DNA of 64,000 nt from Sphingopyxis chilensis (GTDB lineage: Bacteria; Pseudomonadota; Alphaproteobacteria; Sphingomonadales; Sphingomonadaceae), in contig NZ_CP142394.1 in NCBI RefSeq assembly GCF_035930445.1, positions 2,017,501 through 2,081,500 of the forward strand. Reading direction: 5' to 3'. The stretch's first letter is position 1; each line of letters opens with the position of its first letter. This document shows, piece after piece, positions 14,267 through 24,862 of this stretch. The notes beneath the pieces are model-generated. The model was not told where the DNA came from. It did no database searches and worked only from the letters and a program-made list of their open reading frames with translations. The position numbers were made by a program, and so were the translations under genes.

Positions 14267-15466
14267 TCAACCGTCGCTTTCATCTTGCGTGCGATTTAAT
14301 CGATCGCGTACCTCGTCAGTCGTGGTCAGCGTGCCATGCTCGAAAAGGAAACCCGCAAGATCGGGCGTTCCGGTCGACGCGAGCACCGTTTGCAGAATCA
14401 ACAGCAGCGGCACCGCGAGCAACGCGCCCGGCGTTCCCCACACCCATCCCCAGAAGCTCAGGGACACGAGAATCAGCAGCGGGTTGATCGTAAGGCGCTT
14501 GCCGAGCACGAGGGGCGTGATCAGGTTCGCCTCGACCAGATGCACGCCGATGAAGATCAGCGCCGGCAGCAGCGCGAGTCCGACCGCGTCGAAGGTCATC
14601 AACCCGCCGAGCCCGAGCAACACCGCAGCGACGATCGGCCCCAGATAGGGCACGAAATTGCAAATGCTGACGATCCCGCCCCACATGAAAGGCGACGGCA
14701 TCCCCAGCGCCCAGAGCAGCAGCGCGACAGAAAGGCCGAGAATCGCGTTGATCATCGTGATGGTCGCGAGATAGTCGGCGGTCGCATCGACGACATTCTG
14801 GATCACGCGCGCGGTCTGCATCGCGCCGTCGAAGCTCCCGCGCCGGCGGATCGTGCCCTTACGCAGCCGCGTCCAGCCCGCGAGGAAGAAGAAGATGACC
14901 AGCACGGCAAAAAAGAGCTGGATCGCCGCCGAGGGCGCCGACGAGATGAAATAATCGACGACCGAGGTCGGCGCGGTCGCGGCGACCGCTTGCGCCGTCG
15001 CTTCGGTCCCGCTGGCAACCGACGTCAATGTGCGATCGACGAAGCGTTGCAGGGTCGAATAAAAGTCGATGAGCGGCGCAAGATTGCTCTGGATGCGCGG
15101 AATCGATTCGGGAACGCGCGCAAACCAGCCCGTTGCCGGCACGACAATGATTGCGAGCGCCGCATTGATGATCGCGAGGAAGGTGGCGAGCGCAAGAAAT
15201 GCCGCAAGCGCGGAAGGGATGCCGCGTCGTTCGAGCCATTCGAGCAGCGGAACGAGCGCGATCGCGATCACGATCGCGGCGGTAAGCGGCAGGAAGAATT
15301 CCGCACCGGCTTGCAAGGCGAACGGCAATCCGAGGCAGAAGGCGGCGCCAAGGATCAGCGCGAGCGCGGCAAGCAGCCGGTCGCGGCGGAAATCGTCAAT
15401 CTCGATCTGCTGCAGTGGATTGACGCGCGGCGGACGCACATCCTTGCTGCCCCGGTCCTCCGCCAC
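14267..15466 (-). CDS. AI-2E family transporter
   Basis: A 399-residue inner-membrane protein with about eight hydrophobic segments. The C-terminal signature GVHLVEANLITPLVLGKRL followed by INPLLILVSLSFWGWVWG is diagnostic of the AI-2E transporter (PF01594, formerly UPF0118) family. Members export autoinducer-like molecules or act as Na/H antiporters; which applies here is unknown. GTG 15466 was chosen because AAGGAG lies 7 bases upstream; an earlier GTG at 15493 has none. Confidence 0.85.
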   Translation of the reverse strand: MAEDRGSKDVRPPRVNPLQQIEIDDFRRDRLLAALALILGAAFCLGLPFALQAGAEFFLPLTAAIVIAIALVPLLEWLERRGIPSALAAFLALATFLAIINAALAIIVVPATGWFARVPESIPRIQSNLAPLIDFYSTLQRFVDRTLTSVASGTEATAQAVAATAPTSVVDYFISSAPSAAIQLFFAVLVIFFFLAGWTRLRKGTIRRRGSFDGAMQTARVIQNVVDATADYLATITMINAILGLSVALLLWALGMPSPFMWGGIVSICNFVPYLGPIVAAVLLGLGGLMTFDAVGLALLPALIFIGVHLVEANLITPLVLGKRLTINPLLILVSLSFWGWVWGTPGALLAVPLLLILQTVLASTGTPDLAGFLFEHGTLTTTDEVRDRLNRTQDESDG

Positions 15467-15658
15467 CCCGCTTCTCCTTGTTAACCGCCTCACCTTACGC
15501 GTGCTTTACCTGCCGCGCCAGCCGCCCCGTTTCGTGCCGTGCAAGAACCGGGCCTGTCCCTATTTGGAGCAAAACGCGCTTTTCTACCTGCTTTTTAACC
15601 AGAAATTACCCTTTATCGGCGACTGAGGGCTCCAAGGACCAACCTTTTCGGAGTCAAA

Positions 15659-16663
15659 ATGATGATGATAGCGCCTGTGGGGGGCGCGAAGCATCGGCTT
15701 CTTCCCTCTTGTTCGACCATTGCCTTGCTGGCCGCGCTTGCGCTGCCGGTCCAGGCCCAGGCAGCCGGCACACGCGCTGGCTCGACCATCAGCAACACCG
15801 CATCGGCCAGCTTCGACACCGGCGCCGGCTCGACGACCGTCGATTCGAACCGCGTCGACCTGCTCGTCGACGAATTGCTCGACGTGACCGTCGATTCGAG
15901 CAACCCAGCCGAGGTGCCGACGACGCCGGGCGCGACGGGCCAGGTGCTCACCTTCTCGGTCACCAACAACGGCAACGGCGTCGAAGCCTTCGGCCTGACG
16001 ACGATCGCCAACGCCGGCGGCGACAATTACGATCCCGTCATCACCCAAATCTATCTCGACAATGGCGACGGCCTCTTCGATTTCGGCACCGACACGCTTT
16101 ATGCGGCGGGCGCGAACGATCCGTCGCTCGATCCCGACCAAGGGATCACCGTCTTCGTCCTTGCGACGACGCCGGGAACCGTGGTCGATGGCAATCGCGG
16201 CATCGTCAGCCTTGTCGCCGCCGCAAAGACGGGCACCGGCACGCCGGGCACCAGCTTCGTCGGCGAGGGTGAAGGCGGCGGTGACGCCGTGGTCGGATCG
16301 ACGGGAGCCGACGGCGAGGACGCCGGAACGTTCCTCGTGTCGGCTGCGACCGTGACGCTCGTCAAATCGGCGGTCATCACCAACACGCTGAACACCGCCG
16401 ACCCGATCCCCGGCGCAACGATCACCTATACGATTGTTGCCACCGTCGCGGGCAGCGGCTCGGTGAGCGGCCTCGCGATCACCGACGATATCCCGGCGGA
16501 CACCAGCTATGTTCCGGCGTCGATCAAGCTCGGCGGCAGCGCGCTTTCCGACGCGGCCGATGCCGATGCCGGCGACTATAATGGCACGCGGATCAACGTC
16601 GCGCTCGGCACCGTCGCGGGCGGCCAGACCCGCACCGTCACCTTCCAGACCATGATCGACTGA
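15659..16663 (+). CDS. exported DUF11-domain protein A
   Basis: A 334-residue secreted protein, first of the four-gene surface cluster. Signal peptide 1-35 (ends QAQA). Residues 39-75 form a short module GSTISNTASASFDTG leading to VDSNRVDLLVDE that recurs in the third and fourth cluster proteins. Then a beta-rich domain (VTNNGNGVEAFGLTT), a glycine/acidic linker (GEGEGGGDAVVGS) and a DUF11-like domain from about 230 ending VAGGQTRTVTFQTMID. Almost no cysteine in the mature part. DUF11 domains are immunoglobulin-like repeats of bacterial surface proteins. Exact role unknown; a displayed structural subunit is my inference. RBS CGGAG precedes the ATG. Confidence 0.78.
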   Translation: MMMIAPVGGAKHRLLPSCSTIALLAALALPVQAQAAGTRAGSTISNTASASFDTGAGSTTVDSNRVDLLVDELLDVTVDSSNPAEVPTTPGATGQVLTFSVTNNGNGVEAFGLTTIANAGGDNYDPVITQIYLDNGDGLFDFGTDTLYAAGANDPSLDPDQGITVFVLATTPGTVVDGNRGIVSLVAAAKTGTGTPGTSFVGEGEGGGDAVVGSTGADGEDAGTFLVSAATVTLVKSAVITNTLNTADPIPGATITYTIVATVAGSGSVSGLAITDDIPADTSYVPASIKLGGSALSDAADADAGDYNGTRINVALGTVAGGQTRTVTFQTMID

Positions 16664-16674
16664 TGGAGATGCGT

Positions 16675-17139
16675 ATGCGCACCGGCCTTTTCCTTTCGCT
16701 CGCCGCCCTGCTGCCCGGTCCCGCGCTCGCCGCGAACCAGGTCGCGCTCGACAATCATGTGTTCATCGAGCGTGTTTCGACCGACACCGAGGGCAAGCAA
16801 CGCATATTGCTCGAAGAACCGAAAGTCGTCGTTCCGGGCGACCGCCTTGTTTTCGTTCTCAACTATCGCAACGCCGGCGCGCAGCCGGCCGACAAATTCG
16901 TCGTCACCAACCCGATGCCCTCGGCGGTCCGCTTCGCGGACGCCGGCGACACGCGCCCTCTCGTCTCGGTCGATGGCGGCAAGCAGTGGGGACTGCTCGC
17001 CGACCTCAGCGTTCTGATGGAGGGCGGCATGCGCCGCGCCGCGCAGCCCGCCGACGTGACGCATCTCCGCTGGGCTTTCCAGAAGCCGATCCCGGTCGGC
17101 GGCACGGGCAAGCTCATGTTTCGGGGAGTCGTCAAATAG
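16675..17139 (+). CDS. exported single DUF11-like domain protein B
   Basis: A 154-residue secreted protein. ATG 16675 has GGAG six bases upstream and gives a clean signal peptide (MRTGLFLSLAALLPGPALAA); ATG 16663 would overlap the previous stop. The mature part is one beta-sandwich-like domain with VVPGDRLVFVLNYRN and FVVTNPMPSAVRFAD, matching the DUF11 pattern of a G-D-x-hydrophobic strand, then N-x-G, then a P-x-P-like turn. It lacks the N-terminal NTA module of its neighbours, and ends FRGVVK. Probably the smallest component of the same surface system. Confidence 0.72.
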   Translation: MRTGLFLSLAALLPGPALAANQVALDNHVFIERVSTDTEGKQRILLEEPKVVVPGDRLVFVLNYRNAGAQPADKFVVTNPMPSAVRFADAGDTRPLVSVDGGKQWGLLADLSVLMEGGMRRAAQPADVTHLRWAFQKPIPVGGTGKLMFRGVVK

Positions 17140-17213
17140 CGAAGTGACATAAACCGCTTAACGGTCGCCAGCGGTGGGGAAACGGCGGCCACATAAAGCC
17201 CAGGAGCTCAGCT

Positions 17214-18278
17214 ATGACCAGCAAGCTGACTTATATGGGTGCCATCGGTCTGACGGCGCTTTCGAGCGTCGCCGCCGTGCCGGCTTTTGCCGCCGGCACG
17301 ACCGCGGGCACCACGATCACCAATACCGCCACCGTCGACTATCAGGTCGGTGGCGTCGCGCAGGGCCAGCAGTCGGCGTCAAACAATTTCACCGTCGACC
17401 GCAAGATCAACCTGCTTGTGGAGGAAGTCGGCACCGTCACGACCAATGTCGTTCCGGGCCAGACCAACGCCGTCACGACGTTTCAGTTGACCAACAGCTC
17501 GAACGAAGTGCTCGATTTCGCGCTCGTCGCGTCGCAGATCGCTGGCGGCACCGCCGCGCATGGCGGCACCGACAGCTTCGACGCGACCAACGTCCGCATC
17601 TATCGTGACAATATTTCGTCAGGGATAGTGGGCAGCTGGGACGCGGGTGACACGCTGATCACCGGCTATGTCGATGAACTCGTCGTTGATACCGCAATCC
17701 GCCTTTTCGTCGTCGCCGATATTCCGGCGGCGCTTGCCAACAACGCCGTAGCGGGGGTCACGCTCCGCGCGACCGCGCGCGAAGGCGGGACGTCGGGCAG
17801 CCAGGGTGCGGCGATTACCGAAACCGCCGGCGCGAACACCGCGGGCAAGGACACGGTGTTCGCCGATACGGCTGGCGTGACGGGCGACGCGGCGCGCGAT
17901 GGCTCGCACAGCGACAACGACGACTATACCGTGCAGACGGCGACGCTCACGGTCACCAAGACCAGCCGCGTCATCTCCGACCCGTTCAACAACACGACGA
18001 ACCCAAAACTGATTCCCGGCGCGGTCGTCGAATATTGCATTGCCGTCGCCAATTCGGGCAGCGCCGATGCGACGTCGGTCGCCATCAACGACCCCGTTCC
18101 GGGCCAGTTGACGTTCAATGCGGGCACGATCCTGCTGAACGGCACGGCCACGGCGGGAACGTGCAATGCCGACGGCGCGGCGGGTGGCAGCTATTCGGCG
18201 CCCAACGTGTCGGGGACGATCGCAACGGTCGCCGCCGGCGCGACGCGCACGCTCGTATTCCGCGCCACGGTCAACTGA
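17214..18278 (+). CDS. exported DUF11-domain protein C (paralogue of A)
   Basis: A 354-residue secreted protein with the same architecture as protein A: signal peptide 1-26 (ends PAFA), the NTA module AGTTITNTATVDYQVGG leading to NNFTVDRKINLLVEE, a beta-rich middle (LTNSSNEVLDFALV), an acidic linker (GDAARDGSHSDNDDY), and a DUF11-like domain from about 245 ending VAAGATRTLVFRATVN. Two cysteines in the last domain (EYCIAV and GTCNAD) could form a disulfide. RBS AGGAG precedes ATG 17214. Likely a second displayed subunit; no enzymatic motif is visible. Confidence 0.78.
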   Translation: MTSKLTYMGAIGLTALSSVAAVPAFAAGTTAGTTITNTATVDYQVGGVAQGQQSASNNFTVDRKINLLVEEVGTVTTNVVPGQTNAVTTFQLTNSSNEVLDFALVASQIAGGTAAHGGTDSFDATNVRIYRDNISSGIVGSWDAGDTLITGYVDELVVDTAIRLFVVADIPAALANNAVAGVTLRATAREGGTSGSQGAAITETAGANTAGKDTVFADTAGVTGDAARDGSHSDNDDYTVQTATLTVTKTSRVISDPFNNTTNPKLIPGAVVEYCIAVANSGSADATSVAINDPVPGQLTFNAGTILLNGTATAGTCNADGAAGGSYSAPNVSGTIATVAAGATRTLVFRATVN

Positions 18279-18346
18279 CCACGTAACGGACGGGAGCAGC
18301 GCGCGCGCCGGGACAACCGGCCGCCGCTGTTCCCTTCGGGGCTGGC

Positions 18347-21300
18347 ATGGCGATCCGCGACACATCTCTTGGCCTTTTGACCGCACTGGTTGCGGCGGTG
18401 CTGCTGCCTGCGGCACCGGCGGCGCGCGCGCAGGTGATCACGAACACCGCTTCCGCCGAATGGACGCATGACGGCCATCGCGGCGAGGCGCTGTCGAACC
18501 GCGTCGACGTCACCGTCGTGCCCCGTCCGCCGGAGCCGCCGAGCATCGCGACCTATCGCCTGACGAGCGGCGGCGGCGATCGGTCGGTGCCGCTGGCGCC
18601 GACGCAATGCGGGCGGGCGGGCGGTATCGGGGCGCTCAGCACCGCGGCGGCGGCAGCGGCAGCGATCCCGCTGGCCGGTGTCTATGCCGGGATTTCGACT
18701 GCCCCGGCATCGCTGCAGCGGAGCGACAGCTTCCGCGCCGGCGAAATGCTTGTCGTCGGCGTCACCTTCGCCGCCGCAAACCGCGACCCGCAGGCGCGCG
18801 ATACGCTGCCCGTCGTCATCGAACTCGAAAATGGCGACCGCGAATCGATCACCCTTACCGAAACGGCCGCGAACAGCGGCGAATTCGTCGGCTTCATCAA
18901 TACGATCGGTGTGCCGCCAGCCGTGACGCAGGGCGATTGCCGCCTGTCGGTCGAACCCGGCGCGCCGCTGACGCTGCGCGTGTCCGATCAGGCGGACGCG
19001 AGCCTGGTCGCGCTCGCCACGATCGACTTCCTTGTCGATCCCTTCGGCATAGTGTTCGACAGCGGCGACGGAGCGCCGGTGGCGGGAAGCCGCGTGACGA
19101 TCGTCGACGCCGCAACGGGCCAGCCGGCGAAGGTGTTCGGCGACGACGGCGTCTCGGCCTACCCCTCCAGCGTCATCACCGGGCAGCGCGTCACCGATTC
19201 GGGCGGGACGGTCTATGACTTTCCGGCGGGCGACTATCGCTTTCCTTTTCTCGCACCGGGCGCCTACCGCCTGGTCGTAGAACCGCCCGCGCCGTTCACC
19301 GCCCCGTCGGCGTCGAACCCAGCCGAACTCGCCGCCTTTCGCCGCCCGGACGACGGCCAGCCGTTCACGATCAACGACGCGAGCTATGGCCGCAGTTTCA
19401 CGCTGGACAGCCCCGCCCCGGTGCGCGTCGACATTCCCGTCGACCAGCCCGGCCTGCCGCTGGTCCTGCGCAAGACGACCTCGACGCAGGTCGCGGTGCC
19501 CGGCGACGTCATCCAGTATCGCATCGAGCTCTCCAATCGCGACACCCGCCGCGCCACCGGCGCGGTGACGGTGCGCGACGTCCTGCCCGCCGGGATGCGC
19601 CTGCGCGCCGATACCGTGCGGGTCGACGGCGTTCGTGTCGATGCGGCCGTCGAGGCGAATGGCCGCGCGTTCGCCGTCACGCTGCCCGGAATCGCGGCCT
19701 CGCGCTTGGCGCTGCTCACCTATCTGGCCGAAGTCGTCGTGTCGGCGCAGCCGGGCAATGCCCTCAATCGCGCATCGGCGACGGACAACCGCGGGACGAC
19801 AAGCAACGTCGCCGAAGCGACGATTTCGATCAAACGCGACCAGCTCGGCGACCGGATGACGATCATCGGCCGGATCACCGACGGCGGCTGCAGCATCGAT
19901 CCGGGCAAGGCCGGCGGCATCATGGGCGTGCGCGTGATGCTCCAGGACGGCAGCTACACCGTCACCGACCAAGATGGCCGCTATCATTTCGAAGGCGTGC
20001 GCCCCGGCCTGCACGTCGCGCAGATCGATCCTTCAACGCTGCCGCTCGACCGCGAGGCCGTCGATTGCGCCCGCTCGACGCAAAGCGCCAGCAGCGCCAT
20101 TTCGCGCTTCGTCGAAGGACGCGGCGGCGCGCTGAAACGCGCCGATTTCCGTGCGATCGCCAGCACGCCGCGCGCCGCGCCGAACCTCACCACCATCACG
20201 GCGCCGACAGTTCTGAGCGATCCCGAAGCCGCCGGCGCCGGTCGCGACTGGCTCGCGGGTCAGGCGCCGGGCATCGCATGGCTCTTTCCCGAAATCGACC
20301 ATAACCCCCGCGCCAAGGCGATCCGCGCCGCGGTGAAGCACGCCCCCGGCCAGACAGTGTCGCTCCGCGTCAACGGCAAGGCAGCCGATCCGCTGACCTT
20401 CGAGGGCATGAGCAAATCCGCCGACGCCAGCGTTGCGGTGAGCCTGTGGCGCGGCCTCGAAATCCGCGAAGGCGAAAATCGCCTCATCGCCGAAGTGAAG
20501 GACGCGGGCGGCGTCACCGTCGAAACGCTCGAACGCACCGTCCACTATTCGATCACCCCGATGCGCGCGACGCTGATCCACGAAAAATCGGTGCTCGTCG
20601 CCGATGGCGTCACGCGCCCGGTGATCGCGGTGCACCTGACCGACCGCGACGGCAAGCCGGTTCGCGCCGGGCTGACGGGTGATTTCGTCGTTCCCGCACC
20701 CTATTATCCGGCGGTCGAAGCCGATGCGCAGCAGGCGCGCCAGCTCGCGGGCCTTGAACGCGCGCAGCCGGTGTGGAAGATCGATGGCGACGATGGCATC
20801 GCCTATATCGAACTCGAACCGACGACCGCGTCGGGCACGCTCGCGATGGATTTCAACTTCCGCGACGACAAGGTGACACGCAAGCAGACGATCGAAACCT
20901 GGCTCGATCCGGGCAACCGCCCGTGGACCGTGGTCGGCTTTGCCGCCGGAACGCTGGGCTATAACACCCTCGACGACCGGATGGAGCCGGTAGCGGAAAC
21001 GCTCGACGATCTGAACGCAGACGCGCGGCTTGCGCTCTATGCCAAGGGCCGCGTGCGCGGCAAATGGCTGATGACCCTCGCCTATGACAGCGACAAGGAC
21101 GAGGACGACGCGCGGTTCGGCGGCGTGATCGATCCGCGCGCCTATTATACGATCTACGCCGACCGCAACGAGACGCGCTACGACGCCGCCTCGGTGCGCA
21201 AGCTCTATCTGCGCCTTGAACGTCCGCAATTCTATGCGATGTTCGGCGATATCGAGACGGGGATTTCAGAGCCCGAGCTCGCCCGCTACCAGCGCGCGCT

Positions 21301-23458
21301 CAACGGCGGCAAGGCCGAGTATCGCGGGCGCAATGTCGCCGCGACCGCCTTCGTCGCCGACACGCCCTATCGTTTCCGCCGCGACGAGATCCAGGGCAAC
21401 GGCCTGACCGGTCCGTACCAGCTCGGCGCGAAGGATATTTTGCCGAACAGCGAGCGCATCGTAATCGAGACGCGCGACCGGCTGCACAGCGAGCGCATCG
21501 TCGACAGCGTCAGCCTGTCGCGCCATGTTGATTATGACATCGACTATCTGTCGGGAACGATCCGCTTCCGCGAACCCGTGCTCAGCCGCTCGCCCGCCCT
21601 CGACCCGCAGTTCATCGTCGCCGAATATGAGACGGGCGGCGTCGGCCAGCGCGTGCTCAACGCCGGCGGGCGCGTCAGCTATCAGTCTAACGACGAAAAA
21701 ATCCGCGTCGGCGCGACCTTCATCCACGACGAGGACGGCAACGCCAGGACCAACCTTGGCGGTGTCGATGCGCGCTATCGCCCCAATATCGACACCGAAG
21801 TCCGCGCCGAACTCGCGATCAGCGATGCCAAGGCCCAGAATGGCAGCCCCGTCGCGACCGCGGGCAGCGCAAAGGCGTGGCTGGTCGAGGCCGAGCATCA
21901 CAGCAGCAATATGGATATTCTCGCCTATGTCCGCGAGCGCGAGGCGGGCTTCGGCGCCGGCCAGCTCAATCGCGGCGAGGACGGCACGCGCAAGTTCGGC
22001 TTCGATGCGCGCCTCCGCGCGACGCGCACGCTGTCGCTGACCGGCAGCGCGTGGCAGGAAGATTATCTCGACACCAATGCGCGCCGCCGCGCCGCGCGGG
22101 TGCTAGCCGAATATGACAATGGCACCACCGTCGCGCGCGCCGGCCTCACCCATGCCGACGACCGCCTGACCGATGGCACGCAGAACCGCTCGAACATCGT
22201 CCAGCTCGGCGCGACGCAACGGATGTTCGGCAAGCGCCTCGAACTCGACGCGCAGACCGAATATGCCTTGGGCGGCGAGGATGCCAGCGTCGATTTTCCG
22301 ACCCGCCACCGCCTTGGCGCGCGCGTCGTGATCAACCGCGACGTCAACCTCGTCGGCAGCTATGAAATCGCCGACGGCGATACGGTCAAGGCGCGCACCG
22401 CGCGGCTCGGCTTCGACCTCGCCCCTTGGTCGGGCGCGCGCCTGCTCGCCACCGCAAACCAGCAGGAGATCGGCGAATATGGACCGCGCAGCTTCGCCGC
22501 CTATGGCCTGTCGCAGTCGCTGAAGCTTGGCGAGCGCTGGTCGGTCGATGTGTCGGTCGACGGCAACCGTACCATCGGCGGCATCCGTGCGGGCGACGTG
22601 CTTAATGTCGACCAACCTGTCGCATCAGGCGGTTTCCTCGGCACGGGCGGCACGCTCACCGAAGATTTCCTCGCGATCAGCAGCGGTGCAACCTACCGCG
22701 CCGACCGCTGGACGCTCACGGGCCGCGCCGAATATCGCGACGGCGAGCTCGCCAACCGTTATGGCCTGACGCTCGGCGGCCTCCGCCAGCTCGGCGAAGG
22801 TCGCGCGCTCGGCGCACTCTTCACTTATGCCAAAGCAAGCGGCAGCGGCACGACACCAACGACCGAGGTCATCAACTTCGAAATGAGCTGGGCCCACCGC
22901 CCCGCCGATTCGCGCGTGTCATGGCTGGGCAAGAGCGAATTCCGTTCGGACAAGGTGCGCGACGCTGTTGCGGGCCGGCCCGGCCCGATCGGCGGAACGC
23001 TGACGATCGACGGGGATGCGACAAGCCGCCGCTTGCTGGGCAGCCTGTCGGCCAACTGGACGCCGCTCGGCACGCGCGGCGAAGGCGGCATGTGGTACGA
23101 ACGCGCCGAGATCGGCCTCTTTTGGGGCACGCGCTATAATTTCGACCGCTTCGGCGCCGATGACGTCAAGGGCTGGTCGAACCTGATCGGCGCCGACTTT
23201 CGCTTCAACCTCGGCGAGCATGTCGATGTCGGCGCCTCGGGCACCGTGCGCGTCGGCACCGATGCCGACACCGTCAGCTGGGCCGGCGGCCCGACGGTGA
23301 CGCTGGCGCCGATGAAGAATGCCAATATCACCTTCGGCTATAATTTCGCGGGCTTCCACGACCGCGATTTCGAAGACGCGCGCTTCTCGCGATCGGGCGC
23401 CTATGTGACCTTCAAGCTGAAGTTCGACCAGACGAGTTTCGCAGGGTTGGGGCTTTAA
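18347..23458 (+). CDS. giant DUF11 / SdrD-like / outer-membrane barrel protein
   Basis: A 1703-residue exported protein. Signal peptide 1-28 (ends AARA), then the NTA module VITNTASAEWTHDG to SNRVDVTVV shared with proteins A and C. About 233-330 is a prealbumin-like (SdrD/CNA-B type) domain, about 371-490 a DUF11 domain (VPGDVIQYRIELSN), about 507-565 a second SdrD/carboxypeptidase-regulatory-like domain (VTDQDGRYHFEGVRPG). From about 864 the pattern changes to alternating aromatic strands typical of an outer-membrane barrel (KLYLRLERPQFYAMFGDIE near 966), ending in a terminal strand YVTFKLKF. So it is probably anchored in the outer membrane with N-terminal domains on one face. Role unknown; assembly or anchoring platform for A-C is inference from linkage and the shared module. 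Confidence 0.75.
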   Translation: MAIRDTSLGLLTALVAAVLLPAAPAARAQVITNTASAEWTHDGHRGEALSNRVDVTVVPRPPEPPSIATYRLTSGGGDRSVPLAPTQCGRAGGIGALSTAAAAAAAIPLAGVYAGISTAPASLQRSDSFRAGEMLVVGVTFAAANRDPQARDTLPVVIELENGDRESITLTETAANSGEFVGFINTIGVPPAVTQGDCRLSVEPGAPLTLRVSDQADASLVALATIDFLVDPFGIVFDSGDGAPVAGSRVTIVDAATGQPAKVFGDDGVSAYPSSVITGQRVTDSGGTVYDFPAGDYRFPFLAPGAYRLVVEPPAPFTAPSASNPAELAAFRRPDDGQPFTINDASYGRSFTLDSPAPVRVDIPVDQPGLPLVLRKTTSTQVAVPGDVIQYRIELSNRDTRRATGAVTVRDVLPAGMRLRADTVRVDGVRVDAAVEANGRAFAVTLPGIAASRLALLTYLAEVVVSAQPGNALNRASATDNRGTTSNVAEATISIKRDQLGDRMTIIGRITDGGCSIDPGKAGGIMGVRVMLQDGSYTVTDQDGRYHFEGVRPGLHVAQIDPSTLPLDREAVDCARSTQSASSAISRFVEGRGGALKRADFRAIASTPRAAPNLTTITAPTVLSDPEAAGAGRDWLAGQAPGIAWLFPEIDHNPRAKAIRAAVKHAPGQTVSLRVNGKAADPLTFEGMSKSADASVAVSLWRGLEIREGENRLIAEVKDAGGVTVETLERTVHYSITPMRATLIHEKSVLVADGVTRPVIAVHLTDRDGKPVRAGLTGDFVVPAPYYPAVEADAQQARQLAGLERAQPVWKIDGDDGIAYIELEPTTASGTLAMDFNFRDDKVTRKQTIETWLDPGNRPWTVVGFAAGTLGYNTLDDRMEPVAETLDDLNADARLALYAKGRVRGKWLMTLAYDSDKDEDDARFGGVIDPRAYYTIYADRNETRYDAASVRKLYLRLERPQFYAMFGDIETGISEPELARYQRALNGGKAEYRGRNVAATAFVADTPYRFRRDEIQGNGLTGPYQLGAKDILPNSERIVIETRDRLHSERIVDSVSLSRHVDYDIDYLSGTIRFREPVLSRSPALDPQFIVAEYETGGVGQRVLNAGGRVSYQSNDEKIRVGATFIHDEDGNARTNLGGVDARYRPNIDTEVRAELAISDAKAQNGSPVATAGSAKAWLVEAEHHSSNMDILAYVREREAGFGAGQLNRGEDGTRKFGFDARLRATRTLSLTGSAWQEDYLDTNARRRAARVLAEYDNGTTVARAGLTHADDRLTDGTQNRSNIVQLGATQRMFGKRLELDAQTEYALGGEDASVDFPTRHRLGARVVINRDVNLVGSYEIADGDTVKARTARLGFDLAPWSGARLLATANQQEIGEYGPRSFAAYGLSQSLKLGERWSVDVSVDGNRTIGGIRAGDVLNVDQPVASGGFLGTGGTLTEDFLAISSGATYRADRWTLTGRAEYRDGELANRYGLTLGGLRQLGEGRALGALFTYAKASGSGTTPTTEVINFEMSWAHRPADSRVSWLGKSEFRSDKVRDAVAGRPGPIGGTLTIDGDATSRRLLGSLSANWTPLGTRGEGGMWYERAEIGLFWGTRYNFDRFGADDVKGWSNLIGADFRFNLGEHVDVGASGTVRVGTDADTVSWAGGPTVTLAPMKNANITFGYNFAGFHDRDFEDARFSRSGAYVTFKLKFDQTSFAGLGL

Positions 23459-23548: not shown

Positions 23549-24862
23549 TCAATCCGCGAACAGCAAAACCGGCGTTTCGATCAGCTTCTTGAGCGCCTGC
23601 ACATAGCTCGCGGCATCCCAGCCATCGACGACACGATGGTCGCAGCTGATCGAGAGGTTCATCAGCTTCGCGCGGCGGATGTCGTCGCCGTCGAACACAG
23701 GGCGCTCGACGATCTTGTTCGGGCCGATGATCGCAACCTCGGGCCGGTTGATCACCGGCGTCGTCGCGATCCCGCCAAGCGGGCCCAGCGAGGTGACGGT
23801 CAGCGTGCCGCCGGTCAGTTCCTCGACCTTCGCTTTCCCGGTGCGCGCGGCTTCGGCAAGGCGCGTGATCTCGCTTGCGAGCTGCCACACATTCATGTCC
23901 TGCGCGTCGCGGATCACCGGGACCATCAACCCGGCATCGGTCTGCGTCGCCATGCCGAGATGCACCGCGCCATAGCGCGTCACCACGCCGCCTTCGTCAT
24001 CGTAGCGCGCGTTGATCATCGGGAACTCAGGGATCGTGCGGCAGATTGCGACGATCAGGAAGGGCAGCATCGTGAGCTTCGGACGGCCGCCGCGATTGGC
24101 GTTGAGGTCGGCGCGCATCTCTTCGAGCGCGGTGACGTCCATTTCCTCGACATAGGTGAAGTGCGGGATCGCGCGCTTCGACGCCGCCATATTCTCGGCG
24201 ATCTTGCGGCGCATCCCGATGACCTTGATCGGCTCGTCGGCGCGGGCGCGGCTGGCGCCCGGCGCATGATAGCCCTGCCCGCTGCTATAGCGAAGGAAGG
24301 CGTCGAGGTCGGCGTGGCGGATGCGGTCGCCCTCGGACTGCACCTGACCCAAGTCGACGCCCAGGTCCTTGGCGCGCGCGCGGACAGCGGGCGAGGCGAG
24401 GACAGGTCTATCTCCCCTCCCGCTTGCGGGAGGGCTCGGGGGAGGGCTTGTTTCGGAAACTGCCGGAGTGGGCTCAACATGCCCTCCCCTAGCCCCTCCC
24501 GCAAGCGGGAGGGGGACTGCTTCCGCAACCGAAATCTCCTCGGCACCCGGCGTTTCCGCCTCGATCTGCTGTTCGACCGGTGTGTCCGCAGGCGGTGCTT
24601 CCACTTCGCCTTCACCGTCGCCGTCCGTCTCGATCACAGCAAGCGTCGAGCCGATCGGGATAAGATCGCCGACCTCGCCCGCCAGTTCGACCACCACGCC
24701 CGAAACGGGCGATTCCATTTCGACGGTCGCCTTGTCGGTCATCATGTCGGCAAGCTGCGCGTCCTCCTCGACGCGTTCGCCTACACGCACATGCCAGGCG
24801 ACAATCTCGGCCTCGGCAATGCCTTCGCCGATGTCGGGCAGACGGAATGAATAGCGGGCCAT
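23549..24862 (-). CDS. bkdB: branched-chain 2-oxoacid dehydrogenase E2 (dihydrolipoyl acyltransferase)
   Basis: A 437-residue E2 subunit. Lipoyl domain at 1-80 with the lipoyl-lysine K44 in MMTDKATVEME, flexible linker about 81-152, peripheral-subunit-binding domain about 153-190 (LASPAVRARAKDLGVDL), and catalytic domain from about 205 with active-site CDHRVVDGWD. It transfers acyl groups from lipoyl to CoA in branched-chain amino acid breakdown. The linker is odd: residues about 117-150 are encoded by two inverted copies of a palindromic repeat. Last gene of the E1a-E1b-E2 operon; no E3 is present here, so it must come from elsewhere. Confidence 0.9.
   Translation of the reverse strand: MARYSFRLPDIGEGIAEAEIVAWHVRVGERVEEDAQLADMMTDKATVEMESPVSGVVVELAGEVGDLIPIGSTLAVIETDGDGEGEVEAPPADTPVEQQIEAETPGAEEISVAEAVPLPLAGGARGGHVEPTPAVSETSPPPSPPASGRGDRPVLASPAVRARAKDLGVDLGQVQSEGDRIRHADLDAFLRYSSGQGYHAPGASRARADEPIKVIGMRRKIAENMAASKRAIPHFTYVEEMDVTALEEMRADLNANRGGRPKLTMLPFLIVAICRTIPEFPMINARYDDEGGVVTRYGAVHLGMATQTDAGLMVPVIRDAQDMNVWQLASEITRLAEAARTGKAKVEELTGGTLTVTSLGPLGGIATTPVINRPEVAIIGPNKIVERPVFDGDDIRRAKLMNLSISCDHRVVDGWDAASYVQALKKLIETPVLLFAD
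24415..24513. repeat. inverted pair of palindromic repeats inside the E2 gene
   Basis: Two copies of the 20-base palindrome with arms CCCTCCCGC/GCGGGAGGG (24415-24434 and 24494-24513), each followed on its inner side by a related tail (24435-24447 and 24481-24492), in opposite orientation. The pair lies wholly in frame within the linker coding region and encodes runs such as PLPLAGG and SPPPSPPASGRG. The same core occurs at 2361. Confidence 0.8.

Follow-up and report, generated by a model that had tools for sequence, protein, structure and literature searches.

What do three small secreted proteins and one giant one build, when they are encoded side by side and share domains of the DUF11 type? 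We take up this question for a locus in a 64,000-nucleotide stretch of Sphingopyxis chilensis contig NZ_CP142394.1 (hereafter the window; positions refer to it unless stated otherwise). Genes A, B, C and D are open reading frames that fill positions 15659-23458 on the + strand, as the initial annotation of the window had placed them. That annotation took the giant protein, D, for an outer-membrane anchor or assembly platform and the three smaller ones for displayed subunits. Our reading is that the locus may encode a self-linking surface fibre, in which A and C would chain by exchange of a donor hairpin and D would form the base, and to this proposal we give close to an even chance of being right.

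A DUF11 domain apparently divided between protein ends

DUF11 (PF01345) has been renamed CLIPPER and is an isopeptide domain, with a triad of Lys715, Asp748 and Asn806 in the crystal structure 9IFR; in the portion of the report available, the domain is a complete stalk module and its bond is intramolecular (PMC12617251). Pfam places DUF11 above its cut-off in A (residues 240-331), C (261-353) and D (372-492), and B falls below it, at 17.4 bits vs 24.6. The earlier view that all four products are built of DUF11 therefore needs trimming: B misses the threshold, and A and C each have one truncated DUF11 together with another beta-sandwich. A and C are indeed paralogues, as had been recognized, with 33% identity.

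The DUF11 match in A and C begins just after the triad Lys and ends at profile position 82-85 of 114, no more than three residues from the protein end; in D it spans positions 2-113 of 114. The absent part resembles L.N.A.......SN....V, and a hairpin of this kind stands directly behind the signal peptide in A, C and D. In A (15659-16663, + strand, 334 residues) the order is signal peptide, N-terminal hairpin, middle beta-sandwich and C-terminal truncated DUF11. We call the hairpin the donor (15764-15883, +; residues 36-75, with an invariant Asn) and the truncated domain the acceptor (16343-16660, +; residues 229-334, with Lys236 and Asp276), the latter ending where the domain's last hairpin is due. 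C (17214-18278, +, 354 residues) follows the same plan, with its donor at 17292-17411 (+; residues 27-66, Asn37) and its acceptor at 17934-18275 (+; residues 241-354, Lys249 and Asp293). D (18347-23458, +, 1703 residues) has an orphan donor hairpin at its mature N-terminus (18428-18535, +; residues 28-63, Asn33), and its complete DUF11 (19460-19822, +; residues 372-492) holds the triad Lys376, Asp411 and Asn474. B (16663-17139, +, 158 residues) consists of a signal peptide and a single truncated DUF11-like domain, without a donor hairpin.

Joining the two pieces lengthens the match. With an N-terminal hairpin attached to the C-terminal domain, the Pfam match extends to profile position 98-100 of 114 in 7/7 joins. 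The C acceptor rises from 39.7 bits to 45.0, 44.0 and 47.0 with the hairpins of C, A and D, the A acceptor from 35.3 to 37.5, 38.6 and 40.4 with those of A, C and D, and B from 17.7 to 23.9 with that of C; these Pfam scores are given without a shuffled control, shuffles having been run only with a second model, built solely from the complete DUF11 of 21 D proteins. By this D-DUF11 model a protein's own hairpin adds a mean of 10.0 bits, and the gain is positive in 42/42 A and C proteins. Shuffled hairpins add 2.2 bits (standard deviation 2.6, n=420) and mid-protein segments 1.2 bits (standard deviation 2.1, n=420), and the 10.0-bit mean is reached by 1.2% of the shuffles and 0.5% of the segments. 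In the two alignments printed, the donor Asn of A and of C from the window falls on the column of D Asn474. Lys376 and Asn474 of D in turn align weakly (E 0.028, counted by hand) with the crosslinked pair of 9IFR. In phmmer comparisons with that structure the DUF11 of D alone matched, and neither the permuted domain of A or C nor full-length C gave a match.

The triad residues are closely kept despite their separation in A and C. Nine columns are invariant among 42 A and C sequences, and three of these are the donor Asn, the acceptor Lys and the acceptor Asp. Across all orthologues collected, the Lys and the Asp are each present in 42/42 A proteins, with the same counts in C, and the donor Asn is present in 42/42 A and 41/41 usable C proteins. 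For D, both the hairpin Asn and the complete triad were found by eye in 21/21 family sequences listed. The D counts are taken from this listing; in the larger set at least one of the pieces counted under D has its start within the protein (L067), and three rows there that lack the Asn (C of L038, D of L101 and D of L104) reflect a wrong start or trimming. Only D has the Lys-Asp-Asn triad inside one domain, the Asn of A and C sitting in the N-terminal hairpin.

Distribution of donors and acceptors

The four proteins differ in which parts they offer. A and C have both, and all ten of those scanned carry a single donor at one end and a single acceptor at the other. D has a donor only, its own DUF11 being complete. 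In B no donor was found near the start in any of four family members or of 11 proteins from other classes tried. The triad Asp position of B is Asn in 41/42 family members, and at the Lys position no Lys is placed by alignment in 40/42, the residue being mostly Arg by eye. Judged by these residues, B is a putative disabled acceptor in the family of Sphingopyxis, and less clearly so elsewhere.

Acceptor-only proteins also occur outside the four genes. The accessory DUF11 proteins encoded beside the locus in other genera of the family keep Lys and Asp in 7/7 cases and have a donor near the start in 0/7; for accessory proteins of other classes the Asp is present in 5/5, the Lys can be placed in 3/5 and a donor is found in 0/5. 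Elsewhere in the S. chilensis genome, at genome positions 3106787-3108772 (+; L040 6788-8773), lies the gene for a 662-residue protein with a signal-peptide-like start, a P-domain and two DUF11 domains, one complete and the other, at the C-terminus, truncated; no donor hairpin was seen near its start. We regard this protein as a candidate for the tip, with its gene at a distance from the operon. In a chain, a protein that has an acceptor and no donor fits nowhere but at the far end, which is the place of FimH in type 1 pili.

The two-ended plan recurs in another class of the phylum, where 19/19 A/C-like proteins have a donor-like hairpin near the start together with an acceptor, and the acceptor match ends no more than one residue from the C-terminus in 15/19. 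At one locus of that class (L262), an acceptor-like stretch continues into a donor-like hairpin, both within D and within a subunit protein. We considered these fusions as proof of head-to-tail linkage and dropped them, because the complete DUF11 of D proteins gives an identical signal.

Conservation and reach of the locus

The initial annotation had staked its proposal on the four genes staying together in relatives, and this was borne out in each set of loci read. Sixty genomes were searched for the genus survey, and D is present in 34 of 36 Sphingopyxis genomes, partial in some; of the two without it, one is 88% complete and the other complete. The order A-B-C-D, with the same two flanks, is found in 29/29 genus loci read, among them one in which D has an internal gap and another in which D is split across two frames.

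A single-sequence search found D in the genus only, and the idea of a genus-only system was given up when a profile then found relatives in the family and more distantly in the phylum. The D profile matches 18/118 genomes of the order, none of them outside the family of the window; the match is near full length in 17 and partial in one (G061), and ten other genera of that family are reached. In the additional family loci (a set that includes one of the same genus, G147, and two from one genome, G062) 13/13 retain the order A-B-C-D, with lowest identities of 38% for A, 32% for B, 43% for C and 39% for D. Neither flanking gene turned up within the stretch fetched in 10 of the 13, so that A-D cohere independently of their neighbourhood. 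A second collection comprised the best 80 of at least 570 relatives, of which nine without upstream DNA were set aside. A, B, C and D are all held in 70 of the 71 others, with L163 having no B match and the fragmented L134 counted among the 70. The genus, family and second-collection sets overlap, both collections using representative genomes.

Some individual loci depart from the common state. Genome G062 has two complete, diverged A-B-C-D loci (L101, L102). D lies in two frames in L067 (genome G032), and the matches of L134 (Sphingopyxis sp. PET50) come in several pieces, through decay or assembly error. In genome G099, which has no A/C or D match, B alone is left (L267 7713-8177, -), between genes that we take to resemble the AI-2E-type and E2 genes flanking the window's locus. 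This B is either a remnant of the locus or has an independent role.

The system extends beyond Sphingomonadales, into another class of the phylum and onto an Acinetobacter plasmid. Among 348 genomes across the phylum, the barrel region of D has a match in 43, and in 21 of these the match spans at least 880 of 1063 positions. B is found in 20/21 genomes with such a near-full-length barrel vs 11/327 others, and A/C-like proteins in 19/21 vs 7/327. Fisher tests were run on this co-occurrence, and their p-values overstate the evidence because two families supply 19 of the 21 genomes. Ten loci of the other class, probably Gammaproteobacteria, were selected for B and D matching close together (L256-L265), and are no measure of how often the genes are linked; they hold B, then one to three A/C-like genes, then D, with the exact A-B-C-D order in two. 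On plasmid p4 of Acinetobacter haemolyticus, typed as mobilizable, B is accompanied by broken subunit genes, a D-like gene, a gene of the OmpA family and one more DUF11 gene (L113 3132-16639). There is also a split version (L110, L111, L112, L114, L115, L268, L270), in which two genes lie in direct succession, the first for a giant SdrD_B/DUF11-type protein and the second for a barrel protein of its own that is related to the C-terminal region of D. The same models found no separate short B or A/C-like gene in the stretches of L110, L111, L112, L114 and L115.

The C-terminal region of D

Behind its donor hairpin D has sandwich domains, the complete DUF11, an SdrD_B/CarboxypepD_reg-like domain (19898-20017, +; residues 518-557), immunoglobulin-like (Ig-like) domains and the C-terminal barrel region. 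The earlier description of about 840 barrel-like residues at this end was accurate in extent: the last 844 residues (860-1703; 20924-23455, +) are rich in strands, of which 32 consecutive ones are predicted within residues 1087-1691 (21605-23419). Structure predictions were made for monomers, covering residues 640-1703 of D and C alone. The end of D was predicted as a membrane barrel, as the initial annotation had anticipated, though with a mean predicted local distance difference test score (pLDDT) of 67.7 and a predicted template modelling score (pTM) of 0.41. With low confidence, then, residues 1087-1691 may be an outer-membrane barrel of 32 strands, and D could serve for export or for anchoring.

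Some distant relatives are annotated as TonB-dependent receptors, a label that we rejected for D, which has no plug or receptor Pfam domain at E 0.1. Sequence searches of the PDB with D and with the barrel alignment returned nothing useful. Given the predicted size, one may ask if giant translocons made of a single chain also occur beyond the type 9 system of Bacteroidota.

A putative self-linking fibre and its rivals

In the fibre that we propose, A and C would be the subunits, their DUF11 cut open before its last strands and its final, Asn-bearing hairpin relocated to the front of the protein, with the middle sandwich between. The N-terminal hairpin of one subunit would complete the C-terminal domain of the next. 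The acceptor, with its Lys and Asp, would probably be joined to the donor Asn by an isopeptide bond, as the conservation of these three residues suggests, to give a covalent head-to-tail chain. D would stand at the base, with its very large C-terminal barrel in the outer membrane and its N-terminus offering one free donor hairpin to the first subunit. Acceptor-only proteins, such as the accessory DUF11 proteins and the 662-residue P-domain protein, could terminate the chain in the manner of tip adhesins, and B, an acceptor whose triad Asp has become Asn, might be a non-covalent cap or a periplasmic chaperone. The division into a giant anchor or platform and small subunits thus agrees with the donor and acceptor pattern, which would give A and C a way to link. 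B is a poor fit as a displayed subunit, and its missing donor hairpin and its Asn in place of Asp make a cap or chaperone likelier.

The main rival, which we consider unlikely but take seriously, is that A and C are circularly permuted DUF11 proteins closed in cis, the hairpin of each completing its own C-terminal domain with an intramolecular isopeptide bond, and the monomers binding D non-covalently. The presence of both parts at the two ends of each protein scanned suits this explanation, and so does the monomer model of C, where the hairpin (strands 34-45 and 48-60) is confidently folded, with a pLDDT of 93 (blocks 31-60). Closure in cis would not account for the donor of D, a protein in which no acceptor is free, nor for the acceptors of B and of the accessory proteins, which lack a donor; it is from this asymmetry that we infer pairing in trans. 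In C, moreover, the hairpin extends to about residue 60 and the middle sandwich begins at about 65, a distance so short that the hairpin would have to reach back past the sandwich.

Several observations weigh against the proposed fibre. The confident hairpin in the C monomer may pack in cis, as just noted, and with the D-DUF11 model the hairpin of D adds 2.5 bits, no better than shuffles, though it gives the largest Pfam gain. Outside the family the pattern loosens: among the 19 A/C-like proteins of the other class the acceptor match stops 22-91 residues before the C-terminus in four and the Lys is unplaceable by alignment in 11, one A-like protein (L257) has Ser in place of the donor Asn, the donor Asn of D is unrecognisable in 4/11 other-class loci (L259, L260, L263, L264), and the sole donor-like hairpin of D in L262 is internal, at residues 349-376. 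B is not uniform either, since by eye 4/17 family members have Lys at the Lys position, and outside the family 11 B proteins vary in the residue at the Asp position (Asn in four, Asp in four, Leu in three). The S. chilensis genome also encodes a stand-alone B paralogue at genome positions 1636027-1636689 (-; L041 5028-5690), near what we presume to be FtsH, in a 10-kb stretch where A, C and D have no match; together with the solitary B of G099, it fits poorly with a dedicated cap. A-D showed no sortase signal and no match to a known chaperone, usher or secretion family. By the scores given above the barrel model is weak, its Foldseek template modelling scores (TM-scores) by query length are 0.07-0.19 among the 50 rows listed, and two families dominate the phylum-wide co-occurrence.

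We hold it improbable that D is a stand-alone, autotransporter-like adhesin that displays its own N-terminal domains, with A, B and C as separate accessory surface proteins and no polymer. Such a protein would have N-terminal sandwiches and a C-terminal barrel in a single chain, as D does, and the distant relatives in which a giant SdrD_B/DUF11 protein precedes a separate barrel protein make D look like a fusion of passenger and barrel. It would leave aside the constant company of A, B and C and the split DUF11 logic that spans A, C and D. Pfam at E 0.1 finds no autotransporter barrel family in D, and its 32 predicted strands far exceed the 12 of a classical autotransporter barrel. That D is mainly a SprA-like (type 9) translocon exporting A, B, C and other DUF11 proteins, not a fibre base, is more doubtful still: the SprA/Sov profile (TIGR04189) gives D 14.2 bits where the cut-off is 200, many unrelated barrels score equally, and the donor hairpin of D would be left without a role.

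Gene layout and neighbourhood

A and B overlap by one base, and gaps of 74 and 68 bases separate B from C and C from D. Across 13 loci the B-C gap (17140-17213 in the window) measures 43-109 bases, and in most of those A and B are nearly contiguous; with this difference in spacing, it is possible that C and D are under control separate from that of A and B. A scan for promoters and terminators gave chance-level results only. Both flanking genes are on the strand opposite to A-D; we take the one at 14267-15493 for an AI-2E-type transporter and the one at 23549-24862 for a lipoyl E2 gene of a 2-oxoacid dehydrogenase.

All four products open with a signal-peptide-like segment and have no lipobox, as judged by eye, in line with the signal peptides first assigned to them, and residues 1-26 of the C model have a pLDDT below 50. 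Median ratios of nonsynonymous to synonymous substitution rates (dN/dS), taken against 25 genus orthologues after 4 of the 29 loci had been left out beforehand, are 0.19 for A, 0.17 for B, 0.15 for C and 0.15 for D. A-D are real genes under purifying selection.

Comparison with known systems

In a search of open-licence PubMed Central (PMC) literature on DUF11 and SdrD B-like proteins, we recognised no description of this locus among the papers listed. The terms DUF11 and donor strand coincided in one paper, on endospore fibres, where an anchor protein has DUF11 as one of its modules and donor strand was found in the references only. Type 11 secretion cargo was considered and set aside: in the excerpts of the relevant paper, which cover 12 of 14 places, PF01345 is mentioned once, as a domain partner, and the matches are mostly longer domain names with the same initial letters (PMC12282271).

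At the level of the domain, the closest known case is CLIPPER itself, as far as the available sections describe it. The family is the same, the Lys and Asn in the DUF11 of D correspond by the weak alignment above to the crosslinked residues of 9IFR, and A and C keep Lys and Asp within the domain. The difference is that the domain of A, B and C has no Asn-bearing hairpin; A and C have this hairpin at their opposite end, and D has it at its start.

Very large single-chain outer-membrane barrels are known from SprA/Sov, and the SprA barrel has 36 strands. D resembles these proteins through weak profile and structure matches, but it scores far below the family cut-off and has DUF11/SdrD_B domains. 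In the split pairs (L110, L111, L112, L114, L115) the barrel is homologous and a giant DUF11/SdrD_B-type protein lies just upstream; the difference is two genes vs one. Sortase-assembled pili differ in another way, since A and C end in the truncated DUF11 and B in its own domain, with no LPXTG and no membrane tail by eye.

Archaeal threads (Saci_0406) are head-to-tail chains formed by donor strands, with proposed isopeptide bonds between subunits and a putative cap protein (PMC9715654, here and below in the parts available). Their bond joins the amine of the N-terminal Asp24 to Asn57 two subunits along, vs Lys to Asn of adjacent subunits in our proposal (PMC9715654). They have no outer membrane, and by description the thread cap lacks an acceptor where B lacks a donor (PMC9715654). 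The term DUF11 is absent from the main text of the thread paper, so far as its available text extends (PMC9715654).

Pfam at E 0.1 found no usher, PapD-like chaperone or fimbrial family in A-D, a search that did not extend to other genes of the genome. In plan the proposed fibre would work like chaperone-usher pili (FimA, FimG, FimH, FimD), with an N-terminal donor, an incomplete Ig-like acceptor at the C-terminus, acceptor-only tips and a barrel base in the outer membrane. The donor and acceptor pattern is analogous at the level of sequence and lies in an unrelated domain. The donor here is a DUF11 hairpin with an isopeptide Asn, the predicted barrel is larger, and D itself offers a donor.

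A bolder extension of the fibre proposal, which we regard as rather doubtful, is that the loci of Sphingomonadaceae, of the other class of the phylum and of the Acinetobacter plasmid represent a separate class of Gram-negative pilus. Such a pilus would grow by DUF11-hairpin exchange and spontaneous Lys-Asn welds, with no sortase or PapD-type chaperone. A single-chain barrel of more than 30 strands would supply the first donor, acceptor-only tip adhesins would be exchangeable, and B, with its disabled triad, would prevent early reaction of donors. If so, it would be a new type of Gram-negative pilus, similar in plan to chaperone-usher pili yet unrelated to them, and held together by covalent bonds as Gram-positive pili are, with no enzyme involved. 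It would also be a natural counterpart of engineered split-isopeptide protein ligation, and it would give a function to several genes of environmental bacteria now listed as DUF11 domain-containing, with the roles of base, shaft, cap and tip readable from the presence of donors and acceptors. Donor-strand fibres are already known in chaperone-usher pili, TasA and archaeal threads. We place the system among these as a variant of its own; should its chain, its bond and its giant barrel all prove real, it would merit a separate class.

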